Of a stretch of 64,000 nt of DNA, positions 4,497 to 58,000 are shown in pieces. Position numbers and translations under genes: made by a program. This DNA is from Larus michahellis (Eukaryota; Chordata; Aves; Charadriiformes; Laridae): assembly GCF_964199755.1 (NCBI RefSeq), contig NC_133903.1, positions 53,063,239 through 53,127,238 on the forward strand, given 5' to 3'. Below the pieces are notes generated by a model. That model did no database searches. It was not told where the DNA came from and was given only the letters and a program-made list of their open reading frames with translations. Position 1 is the stretch's first letter. Each line of letters opens with the position of its first letter.

Positions 4497-7400
4497 CTGC
4501 AAACAAAAATTGTCCCATTTTCATTCTTTACTGTCAGATATTTCTTTAGAACATAACAGAATTCAGAAATACTGTAAAAATCACTATTTTTTTTCTATGC
4601 AGCCATAGGAAATTATATGATTTTATTAACGAGTCTAGGAGTAACAAACCGAGTTGCTGAGTGCCTCTAGTTCCTTATGTCTGTGCTATAGGAGAAAAGG
4701 CATCTCCAGACCAAGTTCTAAATGATTGTTAATAGTGAGCCATAATCCATCCATACAATTATGAAAAAAGTACTGGCAGACTTTGTGCTGACACTGACTA
4801 CTACAGGACTTTTGACAGTTGTTAAGTACTACAGGAGTAATAAGGATATACTGTACCAGAATAGTCTCATTTCAAACTCAATTTTTCTTTAATTAGAAAG
4901 AGTCACACTGAAACTTTGGTTGCTAGCGATCGGGAAAATCTTAATTAATTAGAATTCATTTAAGGATTTTAGACAGCTTTCTTTAAATACTTACTGCATG
5001 TTCCAACACAGCGTGAGCTATTTCATGTCCCAAAATGAAAGACAGCTGATGAATATCAGAAACTGCATTTAGCAACCCAGTGAAAACAAACACTTGTCCA
5101 TTCTGTAAACAAAAAAAAGAGTCAAAATTAAGTAAATAAATAAAATACTGTTTCAATATTACTACTAATTTTTGCATTGGGTTCAACTTACTGGAAGCAC
5201 AAAAGCATTTACACCTGGTTCATCAACCACATGGATAACCCACTTGAGCGCTGAGACCTGTGGGATATCCTTATTGCTTTCAGATAAATGACCAACAACT
5301 CTCTCCACAACCTGATAGCGCGCATCTGTCTCAGGTAACATTTTACTTTTGAATTCTTCCATCCACTAAAAAAAAAATAAATTAAAAAATCATTGATTGC
5401 CATGCAGAACAAACACACAGTAAATGACTAACTGGTAAACCAATTTAGCAGCTACACATGCCCTAGTTAAATCTAAGTTTTAATACATTTTCCTTTCATA
5501 TACCCAAAGCCGATATATTAGATTTAGGCTTTCAGACCCACAAGTTAAGGATTAATAAACTTAAAAGGAAGTAAACTGACCACAAATGAAAAATAAGATA
5601 GTATAAACTTGTTCTTACAGCCTCCTATATCTGGCGTTTCCCTAATATACAGTTAAGCTCAGCATCACAATTTGACAAACCTTTCTATACCTTCCTGAAT
5701 TTATAATTTTTCTCTGTCTGTACACTTCTACTGTAATTTGTAAGGTGGACAAATTTATACAAAAGATGTAATTTGAATATATCCTTGTACTTCTTTTGCT
5801 ATGTTCTTATCTCGCATTCTCCATCTGCTGGAATAGTGACATTTGGATATGGCTGGATTATCAACTTTTACTGACTTTGGAACAGAAAAATCACAGAACT
5901 CAAAGTTACAGAAATTAATACAATGGACAGTTTAAAAGAAAGCAATTAAAGAAAAATCATAGAATCATAGAATCATTTAGGTTGGAAAAGACCCTTGGGA
6001 TCGAGTCCAACCATCAACTCCACTCTACAAAGTTCTCCCTTACACCATATCACTTAACATCACATCTAAACAAGTCTTAAAACACATTCACCACCACCTC
6101 CCTGGGCAGCCTATTCCAGTGTCTGACCTCTCTTTCTGGGAAGAATTTTTTCCTAATGTCCAGTCTAAAACCTACCCTGCTGCAGCTTGAACCCATTCCC
6201 TCCTGTTCTATCGCTAATTACCTGTGAGAAGAGACCAGCACCAACCTCTCTACAGTGTCCTTTCAAGTAGTTGTAGAGAGTGATGAGGTCTCCCCTCAGC
6301 CTCCTCTGCCTCAAACTAAACAGTCCCAGCTCCTTCAAAATGAGCTGATCCAATGGAAAAAAAAAAAGTACAACTGAATGCAGGTGGAGAGCACTACCGT
6401 AGGAAGTGACAGCTTGGAGGAAAGGATCTTAATGAGACAGACCTGAGCATGTACCTATTATCTAGGCTTTTATTGCTTCTACCAGATTTTTATATTTCTT
6501 GTTATATTACAATAACGCAGTTAGAAATGTTTGCTACACACGTTATATGTGTTCTTTAACCATCATGTGTCCCTGAATGGTTTGCTGATGGAAAGGGAAC
6601 TCTTAAAAAGAATGGGGACAAGAGGAGGGGGTAACTGATGGGGGTGCTCTGCACAGTTCTGAGCATGAAATTCAAAACGAATTAGGACACAACTAGCTTT
6701 GTTTGCCCATCTCATTAATTGGACTATCTCATCACTAAAAAAAAGCATTAACAATTTTAGAGTATTTTGAATTTTTTTTTAATCTTACCATATCATATTC
6801 TATCTGTGACAGTTCTCTGAAATGCTCTTTTCCAAACACCAACAGTCGAGCGCGTCCAGTGACAGGTGTCTCCTCCAAGTGAGTAAAATAAAACATGACA
6901 AATAAAACTCCTAAGCTACTAACACCCAGGAGTATCTTCCATTTATTTCTCCTTGCACTTTCTTTAAAAAGTTCCCGTTTATTAGGAGGAAGTGCCTTCC
7001 ACCAATTTCTTATGCTCCTGTAAGATACAAACATTGTCAACTTAGGACACAGTTAAAAAGGAATTTGTTGGTGTCCACCCTTGCTGTATTCTATATTACA
7101 GCCTCACCTCAGGTAAGAGCTTATGGAAGGTTATACTGTAATTGGCTTCTACTCCATTCCATTTCTTCCCTCCCAAAGGAAAAAGAATGCCCCTTAGTGT
7201 CTTGGTTCATCTCCCTTTACCACATGTAAATGAGAACGAGAAGAGCAAACCATACATCTAACACCTCTGATAACAGAAATAACTTATTGTTGAGCAAACT
7301 GTCAGTCTAGGCCCCAGTCCTATAAAATTTTGCAGATACTAAAATGAAAACGCTACAAATACACCTACCACTCTCCACCAAAACCAACGAACTCATGCAC

Positions 7401-17392: not shown

Positions 17393-18322
17393 TCAGGGCA
17401 GCTGTAAGCTTGGTGCTCTTATTTCACCCATTTCTTTCATCTCAATTTTCTCATATTTTCTTGTCCGCAGCTGCCTCAGAATGACCAGCACAGCGATGCC
17501 AAAGCCAGCAGCCATCGTCACCACTGTCACCACAGCACTCGCGCCAGCAGCCAGCTGTTTCATGCAAAACTGCGGGGGCTTTTCATCAATATAGTAAATC
17601 CTTATTTTTTCAATATCCAGAGCATCTCCATTGACAGTTAACGTTCTGTTAGAACGAAATACGGAGTCATCTGTTATATCTTTTTCAAAGTAATAGGCCA
17701 CATCAGCTATATCTACGTCACACCTCGATTTCTCAGAGCCCTGCTGGTTCAGCTGGATTCGGATAAGCGGGAAATTGTACTTCACGGCTGTGATGAACTT
17801 GGGGTGCAGTTTGTATCGGCTCTCAAACAGATGTCTCAGGGCGTCTTCTATGTTGGTAACATTGAAGGCACAGGACCTTTTTTTGTGCTTCATTTCAATG
17901 TAGATCCAGCTTGTTCTAACCAGTTCACCGCAACTCAGGCTTTTGTCACCCTTTTCGGTTCTTCTGACTCCGGCAGTGTTCACACACCAGCAAGTAGCTG
18001 CTTGATTGCACTGCCTGGCTTTGAAGACACCACTGTCCTCGCAGTCTGGATTGTAAATGCCATCAATATCTAACAGCACACGGGGCTGGCCCCAGAAGCG
18101 ATTCTCCTTCAGGGGAGTCATTTCTGCCTTCATCAGCAAGCATTTTGAAGTCAGCGTTGAACAGTCTACCCTGTGATTTGAACCTACCAGCACGCAGGTG
18201 CAGTTCCCAGATCCGTCCTGGGCACACACTGTCCACTTGTTGGTCGCACAGGTACAGTTGTTCTGCGCTGATGAAGCTGCCGCCAGAATCAAACCCAGCA
18301 AAACCCCCAAGAGAGGCTCCAT
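17393..18322 (-). CDS. TACSTD2: TACSTD2 (TROP2), intronless
   Basis: TROP2 is a single-pass cell-surface glycoprotein of epithelia, paralogous to EPCAM, acting in adhesion, calcium signalling and regulated intramembrane proteolysis. The 309-residue frame has a signal peptide (1 to about 19), an N-terminal Cys-rich region (23-61), a thyroglobulin type-1 domain with CWCV at 111-114, the EPCAM-type C-terminal ectodomain, a membrane helix at about 257-282 and a short basic tail ending KYEKIEMKEMGE. Possible N-glycosylation sites are N22, N40, N154 and N225. Human TROP2 is 323 residues. The lack of introns, the tail and the location between OMA1 and MYSM1 point to TACSTD2 rather than the multi-exon EPCAM. 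The start has a strong context (A at -3, G at +4). The tail lacks the serine that human TROP2 carries in its juxtamembrane basic stretch. Confidence 0.95.
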   Translation of the reverse strand: MEPLLGVLLGLILAAASSAQNNCTCATNKWTVCAQDGSGNCTCVLVGSNHRVDCSTLTSKCLLMKAEMTPLKENRFWGQPRVLLDIDGIYNPDCEDSGVFKARQCNQAATCWCVNTAGVRRTEKGDKSLSCGELVRTSWIYIEMKHKKRSCAFNVTNIEDALRHLFESRYKLHPKFITAVKYNFPLIRIQLNQQGSEKSRCDVDIADVAYYFEKDITDDSVFRSNRTLTVNGDALDIEKIRIYYIDEKPPQFCMKQLAAGASAVVTVVTMAAGFGIAVLVILRQLRTRKYEKIEMKEMGEIRAPSLQLP

Positions 18323-24778: not shown

Positions 24779-41119
<16,341 letters not shown>

Positions 41120-41700: not shown

Positions 41701-43180
41701 GTCGGTTTTGCTAACCTCTGTCTGTGTACTCCCGAGCATGCAGTCGTGTCTTTTCATTTAAAAGATGACAGCAGCAGGGTGTTGTGCGAGTCAAGTTAAA
41801 GTGTTGTAACGTGGCTGTAAAAATGACAGGTTTATTCCCGTATATTCTTAAATCTGTGTTTTGCTTCACAAGAAGTATTTGGCCCTTCATGGTGATTGGG
41901 CTTCTAGTCATATACTGAAGGGAAGTGTGAAGAACCATGAGGGTTGATTCTCATTATGTAGAAAATGACCACAGAGAACCTTCCATCGACTCAAGAAAGT
42001 GTTTCTGTTTTAAGAGGTGACCCTGCAAATATTTTGAACCAATAAACTGTTGCAAGCTTTTTATTCTGAACATTTCATCTTTGTGCTGGAATTGATTTAA
42101 AAGTGAAATTAATAAACGGAAAATATGATTGTTTTCATTGTCACTACTTAAAAATGCAAAATCTAGACGTATGGTGTGGAGAAAGACAGAAAGAAAATAA
42201 TTGTTACAGTCTTGGAATTTGTCAATACCATGTCATAGGCTATAATATAGAAATGTCTAAAGCAGGTCCAGTCCAATATTGAATGTCAGTGTCCATAATA
42301 GTGTCCTGAAAACAGCATCATTGTGTTAGCAAAGTTTTGGGCACAGCCTGCTCCTCTGATTGGTTCGTACCCAGCCTCGTCATATGATTTATTACCGCGG
42401 GGAACGAGTCTAGTAACTCTAAAGTAGAGCAACCCCATACTAGTAAATTTGCAGTGAGATGCCTTCTGATCTCCAGTTAGCTCAGAGCAATACTGTAATT
42501 GGCATAAACCAAGCTAATATTACATTATCCTCAGGAGAGCCAGTGCCGTTCAGCTGTTTGCTTCCCTGTGTCTCCCCACGTTCAGTTGTAGCCGTGGAAT
42601 AAGTTGGATCAGCTCACACATACAACCTGGAGCAGGCATGCATGACTGCACTGAAAGGGAGGGCAGATCAGTCTCTTTTGGCAGTGCTCTGCAGTTAGGT
42701 CCGCCTAAGCTAAACAAAACTAGCATTATCTACTCCAACATCTCTGTGCTGTATATCCTTGAGAATACAGATGTTTCCTTATTCATAATAGATGGCTTTT
42801 TAAAAATGTGATTTTCCCGAGCAATGTTTAGCTAAGCTATTCATACATACTAATATTCACAGATATATGAAAGGTTATTTTTTATCTTCTTTTTTTTTAA
42901 AGTCTTAATTTATGCCAGAGGAGGTCATACACAATGTATTTAAGACTGGTGTTTTTTAAATATGTTCCAAGTATGAGATTTGTGAGAGAAGCAGAAGACT
43001 AATCAGTGCTTAGGAGTTTAACAGCGTCTGTAAGATCCTTTTTATCCTTGGCCACCTTTGATTGCTGACTTAATTCTGCCTGCCCTAACATAATCCTCGA
43101 TCATTCTAGGCAACAGCGCTATCCAAATTACATTAAAAGAGCATTCTACATTTAAATTTAGATTTTTTTGCTTAACATCT
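41701..43180. other. Spacer between MYSM1 promoter and CARD-ankyrin gene
   Basis: About 1.5 kb of ordinary AT-rich DNA lies between the CpG island and the CARD-ankyrin stop codon. It should hold the 3' UTR of that minus-strand gene. Candidate AATAAA signals on the minus strand occur near 42387 and 42060. I see no other gene or repeat. Confidence 0.55.
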
Positions 43181-45448
43181 TCATTTTGTTATTAACATTT
43201 TCTTTTTCAAAAGTGTTACAATTTGAGCCTGATTTTCTGTTTTATTAAATTCTGCTACTTGCAATGGGGTCTTTTTGAGACTATTAGCAGCTAGTAAGTT
43301 TGCTTTTTCTCCTCGTGACCAGTTTACAAGGGAAAATGCAGCATTAAAATGACCAGCCTTGCACGCACAATGCAGTGGAGTATCCTTGCTGCTGTCTAAG
43401 GCATTAATGGCTGCCCCGTAGCTCAGTAACAGATGTATCAAGTTGCTGTGTCCATATTCTGCTGCAATATGCAGTGCGGTCTTTCTCCAAATGTTTCTAT
43501 CATCAATATTTTTATTTTTCCCTGATGTCAGAAGGATTTTTACAATCTCTGTGTCTCCTTTGATGGCTGCATAGTGCATTGGAGTACATCCATTCATGTC
43601 CTTAGCTCCAAGTCTTCCTTTTTTAGCTAACAGAACCTTCACGATGCTGAGATGTCCTCTCACAGCTGCAGTGTGCAGGGGAGTCTTTTTCTCCTTGTCT
43701 TGCATGTTGGGGTCAGCGTTAGCCTTTAGAAGCATCTCCACCATTGTTCTGTCTCCCCTTTCAGCAGCAAAATGTAAAGGGGATTTTGACTGCTTGTCCT
43801 TAACATCAACATTGGCTTTGTGGCGCAGCAGCTCTTGGGCAACATCAGTGTAACCTCTTTGACTTGCAATGTGCAGGGGAGTAACAAACTCTTTAGTGAC
43901 AGCATTAATTTTGGCTCCAGCATTAACTAAAAGGCCAACTAATGCGCCTTTATTATGAAGTGCAGCAACATGGAGTGGGGTTTCATCGGCTTGGTTCACA
44001 AGGTTAACTTCCATCCCATCACGCAGGAGCAGATTTGTGATGGAAGCAGCGCCAGCTTGAACTGCCAAGTGCAAAGCTGTGTCTGAAGCAGGAGTCTTTA
44101 TTCCGAAGTTTGCTCCCTTTTTGATTAGAACTTCTGCTGATTCAGCTTTGCCTGTTTCACACGCCAAGAGTAAAGGAGTGTACTGCATTTCATTGTACGC
44201 ATTTATATCTGTACCTCTGTCAATTAAAGCTGCTACAATACCATGCAGATTTTTCTGTACAGCTCTAAAAAGAGCTGACTCCATTATGTCAGACGACAAA
44301 TCTTTAGAATATTCTAGCAGTATTTTGAAGATGGATGGGTGGTTGCCATTGAAGGCTCTTTCGGCCATGTTGGAATCAACACTGGCTCCGGCTTCTAGCA
44401 GTACTTTCGCAGTATTTTCAGACCCTCGAGAAACAGCATAACCGAGAGCAGTCTGTCCCCTTTCATTCTTTCCATCAATGGAGGCACCAGCCTTTAAAAG
44501 CATTTTTGCCAGACTGCTCTCATCTTTAAGAGCTGCCATGTGCAAAAAGTTGTGCTGGTTCCTGTAGCTTCTCGCCTCTTCTTTCAGAAGCATCTTCAAT
44601 ATGTGACTGTGGTTATTCTGTGCGGCCAAATGAAGCGGTGTCTTCCGTTCCGTATCCAAACTGTATATATAAGCACCACATCGGAGAAGCACTTTCACTG
44701 TGTCACCATGGCCTTTCTCAGCAGCCTTGTGCAGGGGTGTTCTTCCTTTCTCGTCCTTCACGTCTATCTTTGCACCTTTGCTGATCAAATATTCCATAAT
44801 TGCTAGATGTCCATTATCGGCTGCAACATGCAGGAGTGTTTCACTTGAAGAGTTTACTGCATTAATATCATTATCTTTCAATGTTTTCTCGAACTCAGAA
44901 AGATAGCCTTTAGCGACTGCATCAAAAATGCCAACGTGAGAATGATCTTTTTTAGGTTTTGCTGCTCTTGAAAGTTGAGTTTCTTTTTCTTTCCTCTTAA
45001 TAGCTCGTTCTTGTTTTTTTCTCCTAGGACTGTCTTTTTTTTCCTGGTGCTTTTCAGTGCTATTTTCAAACCAAACTGTGTCTTTTTCAAGTAAATACCC
45101 TACCAATTGTCTTCTAGCATCTCCAATGCTTTCATTTACTTCAGTGACATATTTTCTCATCTTGCTGTAAAGTTTTGGCTCCACTTGCTTTAGACATGGA
45201 TAAAAAAAGAGCCTGCAGGCTCGTTCACCTTGAGAAATTAGTATGTCTAAAACTCGAGAGTTCTTTTCTGTTCGTGTCCTGTAGAAACTCATGACCATCT
45301 TTTTTTCTGGGGTAAAAATACCATTGTCTATCAGCCAGTTCAGAAGATGGTCTGGGTCATTTATGCCTTCTACTAGCTCTTGCTTTTTGGTCCTTAGGAC
45401 TTCAATTGCGTATGGATTTGTAAACAGGCTAGTTGAATGCATGATCAT
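43181..45448 (-). CDS. CAIAP: CARD- and ankyrin-repeat inflammasome adaptor (Caiap-like)
   Basis: A single open exon encodes 755 residues. Residues about 12-100 resemble a caspase recruitment domain ([20 protein letters not shown], then [19 protein letters not shown]). A basic linker with RRKK and KRKEK follows (131-168). From about 168 to 750 there are 16-18 ankyrin repeats of 33 residues with TPLHxAAxxGH cores; the seventh is degenerate. A CARD followed by about 16 ankyrin repeats is the architecture of zebrafish Caiap, reported to support caspase-1-dependent resistance to bacteria and to be missing from placental mammals. Met1 and Met3 both have A at -3, so the exact start is uncertain. 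An upstream non-coding exon is possible but I could not fix one. The promoter side lacks a CpG island, unlike MYSM1 about 2 kb downstream. Confidence 0.82.
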
Positions 45449-54327: not shown

Positions 54328-54921
54328 CTTGCCTAAAGAGCAGTTCTGGGTTTACAAGACTCTCAGGATTAAGTTGTGCTTTCTGAGACTTCTGTGACTG
54401 CTGCCGGGTGACATGGAAGATGCTGAAGAGGCATCTAGACCCACTGTAGTCTACCTGTAGGTATATTTTCTGCTGTTACGGTTCCCAGCGTAGCAAACTC
54501 TTTGGCTCAATATGTATAGCATAATAGCACACAGAATAGTAATATATGCTCACTAGGGATTTTAGAAGACCCAGATTAAGGAAAGAATAGTGATTTTTAA
54601 CAAGTACTTGTGCAGTGAATTAGCTACAATAAGTAAAGAGATGAGCTAGGGAATCAACCTTCTTTTCCCCTTGTGTCACAAGACATAGGGGAAGCTTAGT
54701 TTCAGCTAAAAGTTAATATAGCATCATGAAAATGGAATCAACATGACATTAAGAAATGAAAGAAGGGATATTGTAGTGACAGCTCAAGCTTTATTAGCAC
54801 CTTCATGTTTAATTCAATAAAATATCACTATTTAAAATTTATCTGAAGCAGACAGAGCTTGCAATAGAATTCAGAGCAAACCTAATAAGAGTATAGATGG
54901 CCATTGCATGCTTGCAAATTC

Positions 54922-55053
54922 ATTTTATTTTATTTTATTTTATTTTATTTTATTTTATTTTATTTTATTTTATTTTATTTTATTTTATTTTATTTTATTT
55001 TATTTTATTTTATTTTATTATTTTATTTTATTATTTTATTTTATTTTATTTTA
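54922..55053. repeat. (ATTTT)n pentanucleotide tract
   Basis: About 130 bp of ATTTT repeats. The left part, roughly 54922-55018, is about 19 uninterrupted units; the right part carries ATT interruptions. An open frame across it is an artefact of the five-base period. A tract this long and pure is likely length-variable between individuals. Confidence 0.97.
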
Positions 55054-58000
55054 AATTGGCACATTTACCTTAATTGTAGCAAATTACATCTCAGGTTTGC
55101 ACTTTCCATGCTGTTTTCATTTCATACCTGTATTAATTTCTTTTTGAATCTTTCAAACCAAAAACTATTAAACATCTTTTGTGCTCTGTAGGCTTGCTTT
55201 TTGTCAGTTTGTTTTACAACAGGTTGCATTAATGTTATCTAGATGTGACTTTCAGTTTTGCATGGATTGGCACCAAAACCACCAGGATGGTAGTTTGTTC
55301 CCCCTTCCCCTCTTTTACTCACTGGCATAATTTCCATCCAACAAAGCTTTTCAAAAATAAGGAAGGAAAAGGCCTTCCTGTACAAGCTTCCTGTGAATCC
55401 TATCCAGATATAAAAGACTTGTGTAAAAGCTTGGCAGGCAATCCCGGCATATGCCACTTAGTAACTTCCTTATTTTATGCTATCATTCCACGTACAGCAA
55501 ATGAATCTGAAAATCAGAGTAATTTCCATTCATTTTCGAATAAGAAATTTTAAATGGTAAATTTCCTATCTGTGTATAACGCCCACATTTCAAATTAAAA
55601 GTTTTGAATGCTGACAGCATTAGTCATAGGAAATCCTGTATGAACATCCAGCACTTAAGTTGGACCTTCCCCTAGATCACACCACAGAAGGAGTTTACAG
55701 GAAAACGTTCCGTTACTCTTAAATACTGCCTTGATTTTTAACCCTTTACATGCCATTGCATCTGATATGACAGTGCTTTTTTTCTAGAGCCCATTTCCCA
55801 TTTTCTTGTGATTGAAATGGTATTGAAAAACTATAAAGTTCAATGCTATTTTTTCTGTATTTTAATAATATACCAGTAGCATTCTATAGATACGTATGTA
55901 TACATATACACCCTCCCCCATGAACACCAACAGTCTTCAGTGTATGTTACTCAGAAGAAAATTAATTAGAAGAAAAAAATATTAGTTTAGAATATTATAT
56001 TGAATATAAGGGAACCTCTACATAGCAGGATGTAGAATTTATTTATCGTTATTTATAGGCATATATATTGTTATATATATATGGTTAATTCTCATATGAA
56101 TATATTGCATAAAATACAATATACAGTATAAGTATTTTAAAATATTTGGTGCAAAAAACCCCAGGGTGTTCACAGAAGCCCAGTAAGAGCTTTGACAAAT
56201 AGGCTTTGCTGCGTGTGGTTATGCTGGTTAACCCATTACTTTTTCCACCTTTCTGCCCCTACCACTCCTACAGACGGGGCAGTAGCTGGGATACGTGTAC
56301 CCGGCTCAGCCGATCCACAGCACAGTGTGCTGGCACAGGACGCTACCATCAGTGTGCGACCTTATGGAGGGGATAGTATAGACCTGTCATCCATCCTCTT
56401 CTGCAGCTGTCGCTAGAGAAGTGGCCATCACTGTCAAGTAACCTAATAAGCAATTGGCAAAGGTAAAATTTAACGTTAGGTGTATCAACTTACATTCATT
56501 CTCTGTTCTTGAGATACATACTGTCTTGGATAAAAGTGAGGCAAAATAGCAGGTTCCCACAGACCGCAGTTCAGCTTAGGCACTATGGTAGTAGTCTGTG
56601 AATGGCAGTGGGACATAAGGTCTCACATTGATTTACAAAGTTACATTGGCTGGTTTAGTTTTTAAGGTAGTAACATACTGCAGACCCCGAAGTTCACGTC
56701 CAGTAAATCCTCCCCTGAGCACCTTCAAAAACAGACTTATACCATGATGCTGAAAGGGAAAATATATTAATATTCACATGTTAATTCTCAGCATGAAACA
56801 AACTGTATAGCTCAGTAAAAATGGAAAACTAAAACAGCCAATGTAATTTTGTAAATTAAACCATAACATGAAAGTAGGCATGCAAGTGAAATATGCAGCT
56901 ACGTTGCACAGGATCATTTTTGCCAGTCTGGCATTTCCTGTCCCGTGAGAAACACAGGAGCAATTTCTGCACGTAAGAATGATAATGCAGTGAACAGAGG
57001 GGGCCAAGGAAATAGCTTGAAACTAATTTTGGGTGGGATGGTATATTTTGTAAGTAAATTCAAAACAGACATGGAAGCCAATATCAGGAACATGTGCGAG
57101 AAATTCCATTTATAAGATTTTGAATAATAACCTCACTGCCCTCTTAAATAATTTGAAATATATATGCGTAAAGTTAGTCATCTAACAAAAACAGTTTCAT
57201 AAGCAGGTATACTAAGGACTCACAGTTCTCATTCAAGTTAATGGGTGCACGAAAAATGTTCAGTGTGAAAGTCAAACCACGTTTTATAGGTTTGTCCACA
57301 TGGGACATTGAGCTTGTTTAACCAAAAGTGTGAATTCAAATTAAGTTAGTTAAACTGGTGCAAAATCTGCCTGGGCGCTTTTGTAGTGTAATTTAAATTG
57401 GGATGAATGAATTTAAGAGTTCTGACTCAGTCTCTGGTAATTTCAAGATTGCTGGTGAGCATTTCTTTCAGAAGATGCCACATCCCTACTGCTTGTACCT
57501 GCATTTATGTTCCACCTCTCCTATTGCTCCCCATTATTTCAGGTGTTTGTAGAGCTGCATGGTTAAAACTGAATAAGGGAAGCAATGCAGATTAAAATAA
57601 GTATCCTGCAATATTCCAAAAAGTGCTTCCAGCACAAATTAGGGAGTGGAAAAGAAGAGGCAAAGGAGAAGGGAAAAGGTGGCTGCTCAGGCTGGCACCA
57701 GTGTGAAAAACCTGCTTACACACACCAAAGCTGAGCTCCCTTCGGCCAGGAGGCGGATGTGTCAGTGCTCGCCTGGCAGCAGCAGCCCTTGGAGCAGTAG
57801 CGGCCAACTGTTCAGCTACTGCAGTCCACAGACTGGCATGTAAACCTAGACTGCTTTCTTGGTAGCTTCTTAAAACACCACTGCTAAAGCTACCTGAAGT
57901 CATGCAGCAAGGCCCCATATCAAAATCACTGAAGTAAAACTGTGCGTACTTGTGTACCGCTTTGAAATAATCAACTTGAAAAAGCTAGAGCCATGTAACT

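Follow-up and report, generated by a model that had tools for sequence, protein, structure and literature searches.

The CAIAP locus between MYSM1 and JUN

The window, i.e. the whole stretch of 64,000 nucleotides of Larus michahellis DNA that was analysed, carries on its minus strand, in order along its length, an OMA1-like exon, TACSTD2, MYSM1 and a long open frame read as the bird CAIAP gene. A Jun-family gene follows on the same contig (C12) and strand, 1.8 kb past the window end. The features are (window positions unless a contig is named):

4986..5219, minus strand: OMA1-like exon with a peptidase M48 motif (Pfam M48, E 4.5e-11)
17393..18322, minus strand: TACSTD2 (TROP2), one open frame (Pfam EPCAM-Trop-2_C, E 4.4e-42)
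28407..28679, minus strand: frame with a JAMM-like HSHP...D motif found by eye, read as a MYSM1 exon
35068..35880, minus strand: MYSM1 exon region with the start of the SWIRM domain (Pfam SWIRM, E 4.3e-8)
42388..42393, minus strand: first AATAAA 3′ of the CAIAP stop, a possible poly(A) signal (pattern only)
43181..45448, minus strand: CAIAP coding frame, 755 aa plus stop, single coding exon (open reading frame and Pfam)
43298..44854, minus strand: CAIAP ankyrin array, residues 199-717, with 14 clear 33-residue repeats and divergent ones between and beyond them
44933..45136, minus strand: CAIAP basic linker, residues 105-172 (19 K/R versus 12 D/E)
45155..45403, minus strand: CAIAP CARD, residues 16-98 (Pfam PF00619; best PDB match the NOD1 CARD, E 1.2e-5)
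C12:53129065-53129718, minus strand: Jun-family gene, read as JUN (311.9 bits)

The M48 exon presumably belongs to OMA1, and the HSHP...D motif, which we take to be JAMM-like, to an exon of MYSM1. The Jun-family gene is separated from the start of CAIAP by about 20 kb and is the best of three Jun matches in the genome. With the SWIRM exon on one side and this gene on the other, CAIAP indeed sits between MYSM1 and JUN, where an earlier note on this DNA, made from the letters of the window, had placed it. The interval is a plausible synteny marker for the loss of Caiap in mammals; MYSM1 does not occur in the main text of the zebrafish Caiap study (PMC5662874). As for the other Jun-family matches, the second is full-length and lies on C27, while the third (C41:54537815-54538408, plus strand) reaches 107 bits, covers profile positions 57-226 only and falls in a 613-codon open frame. 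A long TTTTA-type microsatellite at 54889-55070 of the window is visible as frames of FILFY repeats. In addition to the MYSM1-JUN region at 53 Mb, contig C12 carries at 16.4 Mb three globin matches that we interpret as the alpha cluster, and since the two regions presumably sit on separate chromosomes in chicken, C12 is likely to be a fusion. In the PDB, the alpha-A globin of this genome reaches 255-289 bits with the first 15 single-copy alpha chains, among them those of goose, ostrich and duck, and 226 bits with the next, a turtle chain (3at5); six higher rows (399-408 bits), haemoglobin constructs of 283-285 residues taken for two fused alpha copies, were set aside. A non-avian reptile was accordingly rejected as the source of the DNA.

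The CAIAP frame comprises 755 sense codons followed by a stop, with no interruption, the start being taken as the first ATG in frame. In a simple model of base composition, a run of this length has a probability of about 10^-22, which rules out a chance open reading frame. The coding part forms one exon here, to which a 5′ non-coding exon may be added; two exons would be expected for Caiap. The CARD profile PF00619 (cut-off 23.9) scores 43.7 bits (E 2.9e-11) on residues 1-172 and 38.8 bits on the whole protein, and five general Pfam ankyrin-repeat models lie above their cut-offs (Ank_2, E 1.5e-111). Scoring the protein register by register against the textbook consensus yields the 14 clear repeats, and an AlphaFold model predicted from the single sequence (mean pLDDT 68, pTM 0.52) displays 17 helix pairs in succession and a degenerate end, so that the 16-18 repeats counted in the earlier note are a fair estimate. 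The uninterrupted frame, the N-terminal CARD and the basic linker that it had described were all recovered.

In a Foldseek search with the whole model, the three top-ranking structures are ankyrins B and R, which lack a CARD; this likeness is generic to long ankyrin arrays, with DARPins and other ankyrin-repeat proteins close behind. A CARD-free ankyrin family was ruled out as the identity of the protein, since the Pfam CARD is above its cut-off. A search of the same genome with CAIAP, in which scoring covered 59 of the 264 first-look candidates, gave one full-length match among at least 61, the other matches (at least 60) being confined to the ankyrin part (best E 1.3e-27).

Likeness to Caiap and affinities of the CARD

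Caiap was described in zebrafish as a protein of 744 aa with an N-terminal CARD and 16 ankyrin repeats, and was reported from cartilaginous fish through marsupials, including six birds (turkey, chicken, budgerigar, golden eagle, barn owl and white-throated sparrow) with 48.0-49.6% identity to the zebrafish protein (PMC5662874). With an N-terminal CARD, 16-18 repeats and 755 aa, the window protein has the Caiap architecture recognised in the earlier note, and nothing in architecture or length, as tested here, sets it apart. Its reading as the bird CAIAP gene is well supported, the putative orthology drawing on architecture, length and locus. Bird CAIAP is therefore a gene of a kind already known, given the six birds previously listed (PMC5662874). 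In the same study Caiap was not found in placental mammals and was divergent in marsupials (35.3-35.7% identity to zebrafish), which would fit a gene that is intact yet functionally marginal and heading for the same loss (PMC5662874). However, all 755 codons are open, the CARD scores above threshold and the repeats are regular over most of the array, and we regard such a relic as very unlikely.

The affinities of the CARD bear on the pathway in which CAIAP might act. Eighteen PDB matches to the N-terminal part were obtained, with no Caiap among them, and the best six are all the CARD of NOD1 (CARD4; E 1.2e-5 to 1.3e-4), a protein that carries a NACHT domain and LRRs instead of ankyrin repeats. 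When 11 of the 23 other CARD matches in the genome were compared, the nearest was a RIPK2-like CARD (E 9.8e-6), followed by CRADD, both named by eye. The CAIAP CARD was closest to caspase-1, ASC or NLRC4 neither in the PDB nor among these 11. A Foldseek search with the CARD model returned three matches, none of them a CARD (best E 3.7), and is uninformative, since the confidence of the model is too low (pLDDT 58). Because the nearest relatives are NOD1 and a RIPK2-like CARD, CAIAP could belong to NF-kB signalling of the NOD1/NOD2-RIPK2 type and not to the inflammasome, its CARD pairing with that of a NOD protein or RIPK2. Both likenesses are weak, however, and at such a level of similarity it is difficult to assign a CARD to a class; moreover, knock-down of caiap in zebrafish reduces caspase-1 activity (PMC5662874). 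A role in NOD-type signalling thus appears improbable, and a role in the inflammasome is preferred.

A PYCARD/ASC gene on a small GC-rich contig

The earlier note had assumed that birds lack ASC. A profile search of the genome gave 24 CARD matches at E 0.1 or better, one of which lies on contig C34, a small, microchromosome-like contig of 1.04 Mb, and belongs to the following gene, separate from CAIAP and the more valuable result of the two:

C34:569913-572193, plus strand: PYD-CARD gene, read as bird ASC/PYCARD (Pfam PF02758 and PF00619; PDB matches)

The CARD (PF00619, 57.5 bits) matches NLRP1 (E 3e-8) and ASC (E 6.5e-8) in the PDB about equally and on its own does not separate the two. Upstream of it on the same strand lies a PYD (PF02758, 62.0 bits), which in the PDB is matched best by ASC (E 1.7e-9) and next by NLRP6 (E 1.2e-8). 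The same PYD was recovered at 61.7 bits in a genome-wide PYD search, in which seven of nine matches were above the cut-off. The two domains can be joined in a two-exon model of 277 and 353 nt with a consensus donor (AGG|GTGAGG), a CTCCAG acceptor and matching phases, which encodes 209 aa with no internal stop and has a GC3 of 0.94. Residues 5-197 of the predicted protein are colinear with residues 5-193 of human ASC (E 1.4e-20), while the best NLRP1 match reaches E 4.1e-11 and the 21 NACHT matches listed genome-wide all lie on contigs other than C34, so that NLRP1 was rejected as the identity of the gene.

As in human ASC (PDB 9wz4, 2kn6), a PYD is followed by a proline-rich linker and a CARD. 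The predicted protein is longer than the human one (209 versus 195 aa), with three extra residues in a PYD loop and a C-terminal tail of 12 residues instead of 2. The human gene has three exons, in contrast to the two of the model, and the bird gene may contain a further small linker exon. Among the residues that we take to be required for filament formation by human ASC (PYD E13, K21, R41 and D48; CARD R119, D134, R160, W169 and Y187), E13, R41, D48, R119, D134, R160 and W169 are identical, K21 is replaced by Arg and Y187 is not kept. The gene is accordingly described as an intact-looking bird PYCARD/ASC, a reading based on its predicted product.

The 30 kb around PYCARD contain 66% GC, and repeat-like frames were seen by eye. 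A fragment upstream on the opposite strand matches the I domains of integrins alpha-M and alpha-L (PDB, E 4.1e-7), its VWA score of 22.2 being just below the Pfam cut-off of 23.8; a second integrin-like fragment on the contig had no Pfam match. Downstream, SSF-family transporter exons are located at 586 kb and again at 592 kb, followed by a P-type ATPase (610-615 kb); a short SLC5A-like first exon near PYCARD matched no Pfam family, whereas the SSF exons at least 11 kb further on did. In human, PYCARD presumably lies together with ITGAM/ITGAX and SLC5A2 on 16p11.2, and the leukocyte-integrin fragment and SSF exons near the bird gene, which are assigned to family, may correspond to this arrangement.

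In the literature, ASC is stated to be absent from chicken (PMC12724324; PMC13185645; PMC13076529), and Pycard was not found in turkey or zebra finch either, which was called a potential loss (PMC13076529). ASC-independent NLRP3 signalling has consequently been suggested for chicken (PMC12724324; PMC13185645). Elsewhere, colocalisation of ASC with NLRP3 was reported in PBMCs infected with duck reovirus, with no gene given in the passage concerned (PMC13367899), and another paper counts ASC among the components of the NLRP3 inflammasome and says nothing of chicken at that point (PMC12383568). Neither PYCARD nor ASC appears in the main text of a paper on missing avian genes (PMC12954441). Among the papers listed from an open-access library, none was seen to report a bird PYCARD gene; an NCBI-annotated PYCARD may exist for some birds. 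Assemblies, of birds or others, have been reported to cover GC-rich sequence poorly (PMC9516821; PMC5470226).

Further inflammasome genes and the proposed role of CAIAP

The same genome contains further genes of the pathway, which are known here from exon and domain matches:

C11:12349601-12352154, minus strand: compact caspase-1 gene (CARD and catalytic exon matches)
C3:40940612-40942907, plus strand: NLRC4-like CARD and NACHT locus (CARD PDB match, E 5.5e-26)
C4:94455012-94456397, both domains on one strand: PYD and NACHT locus, NLRP-type (profile matches)
C4:93193518-93195381, both domains on one strand: PYD and NACHT locus, NLRP-type (profile matches)
C13:21566277-21568137, both domains on one strand: PYD and NACHT locus, NLRP-type (profile matches)
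C596:1116891-1120351, both domains on one strand: PYD and NACHT locus, NLRP-type (profile matches)

The caspase-1 CARD matches human caspase-1 (E 6e-12), and the catalytic exon matches caspase-4 (E 3.8e-25) and caspase-1 (E 6.1e-25) about equally. This exon has the SHG and QSCRG motifs with the catalytic His and Cys present; QSCRG stands in place of QACRG, the usual caspase active-site pentapeptide. At the NLRC4-like locus the NACHT match lies 1.6 kb beyond the CARD, and the sensor of the flagellin pathway may be intact in Larus michahellis. At the four NLRP-type loci PYD and NACHT are 0.7-2.7 kb apart, and the encoded sensors would be expected to need ASC. Gasdermin exons occur at three places, on C2, C11 and C22 (four matches).

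In view of the intact-looking PYCARD on a GC-rich, microchromosome-like contig and of the PYD-NACHT loci, we consider it quite probable that birds are not devoid of ASC, that a canonical PYD-ASC-caspase-1 inflammasome exists in birds, that the absence recorded for chicken, turkey and zebra finch is at least partly due to sequence drop-out, and that CAIAP has been kept alongside ASC as a second CARD adaptor. The architecture, intact frame and MYSM1-JUN position given in the earlier note stand, but its premise of ASC loss fails in this genome. The proposal that CAIAP serves as a substitute platform for caspase-1 is thereby left without its basis, since CAIAP need not be one when the same genome has an intact-looking PYCARD/ASC. 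Work on the chicken inflammasome rests on the statement that ASC is missing (PMC12724324; PMC13185645), as also reported in PMC13076529; with ASC, PYD-NACHT loci, caspase-1, NLRC4 and CAIAP in one bird assembly, the ASC question becomes directly testable. For CAIAP, the question shifts from replacement of ASC to cooperation with it.

The CAIAP gene, its domains and its locus are direct observations, as are the exons of other pathway genes that co-occur with it; what CAIAP does can be proposed from zebrafish. There, the CARD of Caiap self-oligomerises, the ankyrin repeats bind the caspase Caspa only if it is catalytically active, and Asc is needed genetically, yet is not bound (PMC5662874). By analogy, the CARD of bird CAIAP would mediate self-association of the protein and its ankyrin solenoid would hold active caspase-1, so that caspase-1 complexes would be stabilised. 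CAIAP would do so in cooperation with ASC, which is our own extension to birds, and beside a canonical set of PYD-NACHT sensors, ASC, NLRC4, CARD-caspase-1 and gasdermins. Since the loci for ASC, CARD-caspase-1 and the sensors are all present, bird CAIAP seems rather likely to serve active caspase-1 as an accessory scaffold beside ASC, and not to replace ASC. The caspase-1 of Larus michahellis differs from zebrafish Caspa in having a CARD prodomain instead of a PYD, which makes the transfer from zebrafish uncertain. For species with such a CARD-caspase-1, recruitment by Caiap independently of ASC has already been raised as a possibility (PMC5662874), and, together with the reported absence of ASC from chicken, turkey and zebra finch, this would suit a platform that took over in birds after ASC was lost. 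The PYCARD gene, the PYD-NACHT loci with their expected need for ASC and the dependence of zebrafish Caiap on Asc (PMC5662874) all speak against such a takeover, which we hold to be highly doubtful; the accessory scaffold remains our preferred reading.

Two further groups of matches were noted in the genome. Contigs C39 and C54 carry five NACHT matches of equal extent, each of them interrupted by a TGA and two TAG codons, possibly a broken and recently amplified NLR. On the plus strand of C11 (28348152-28388842), four caspase-domain matches, in each of which a single exon covers the greater part of the domain, lie within 41 kb and presumably correspond to the CASP8/CASP10/CASP18/CFLAR group.
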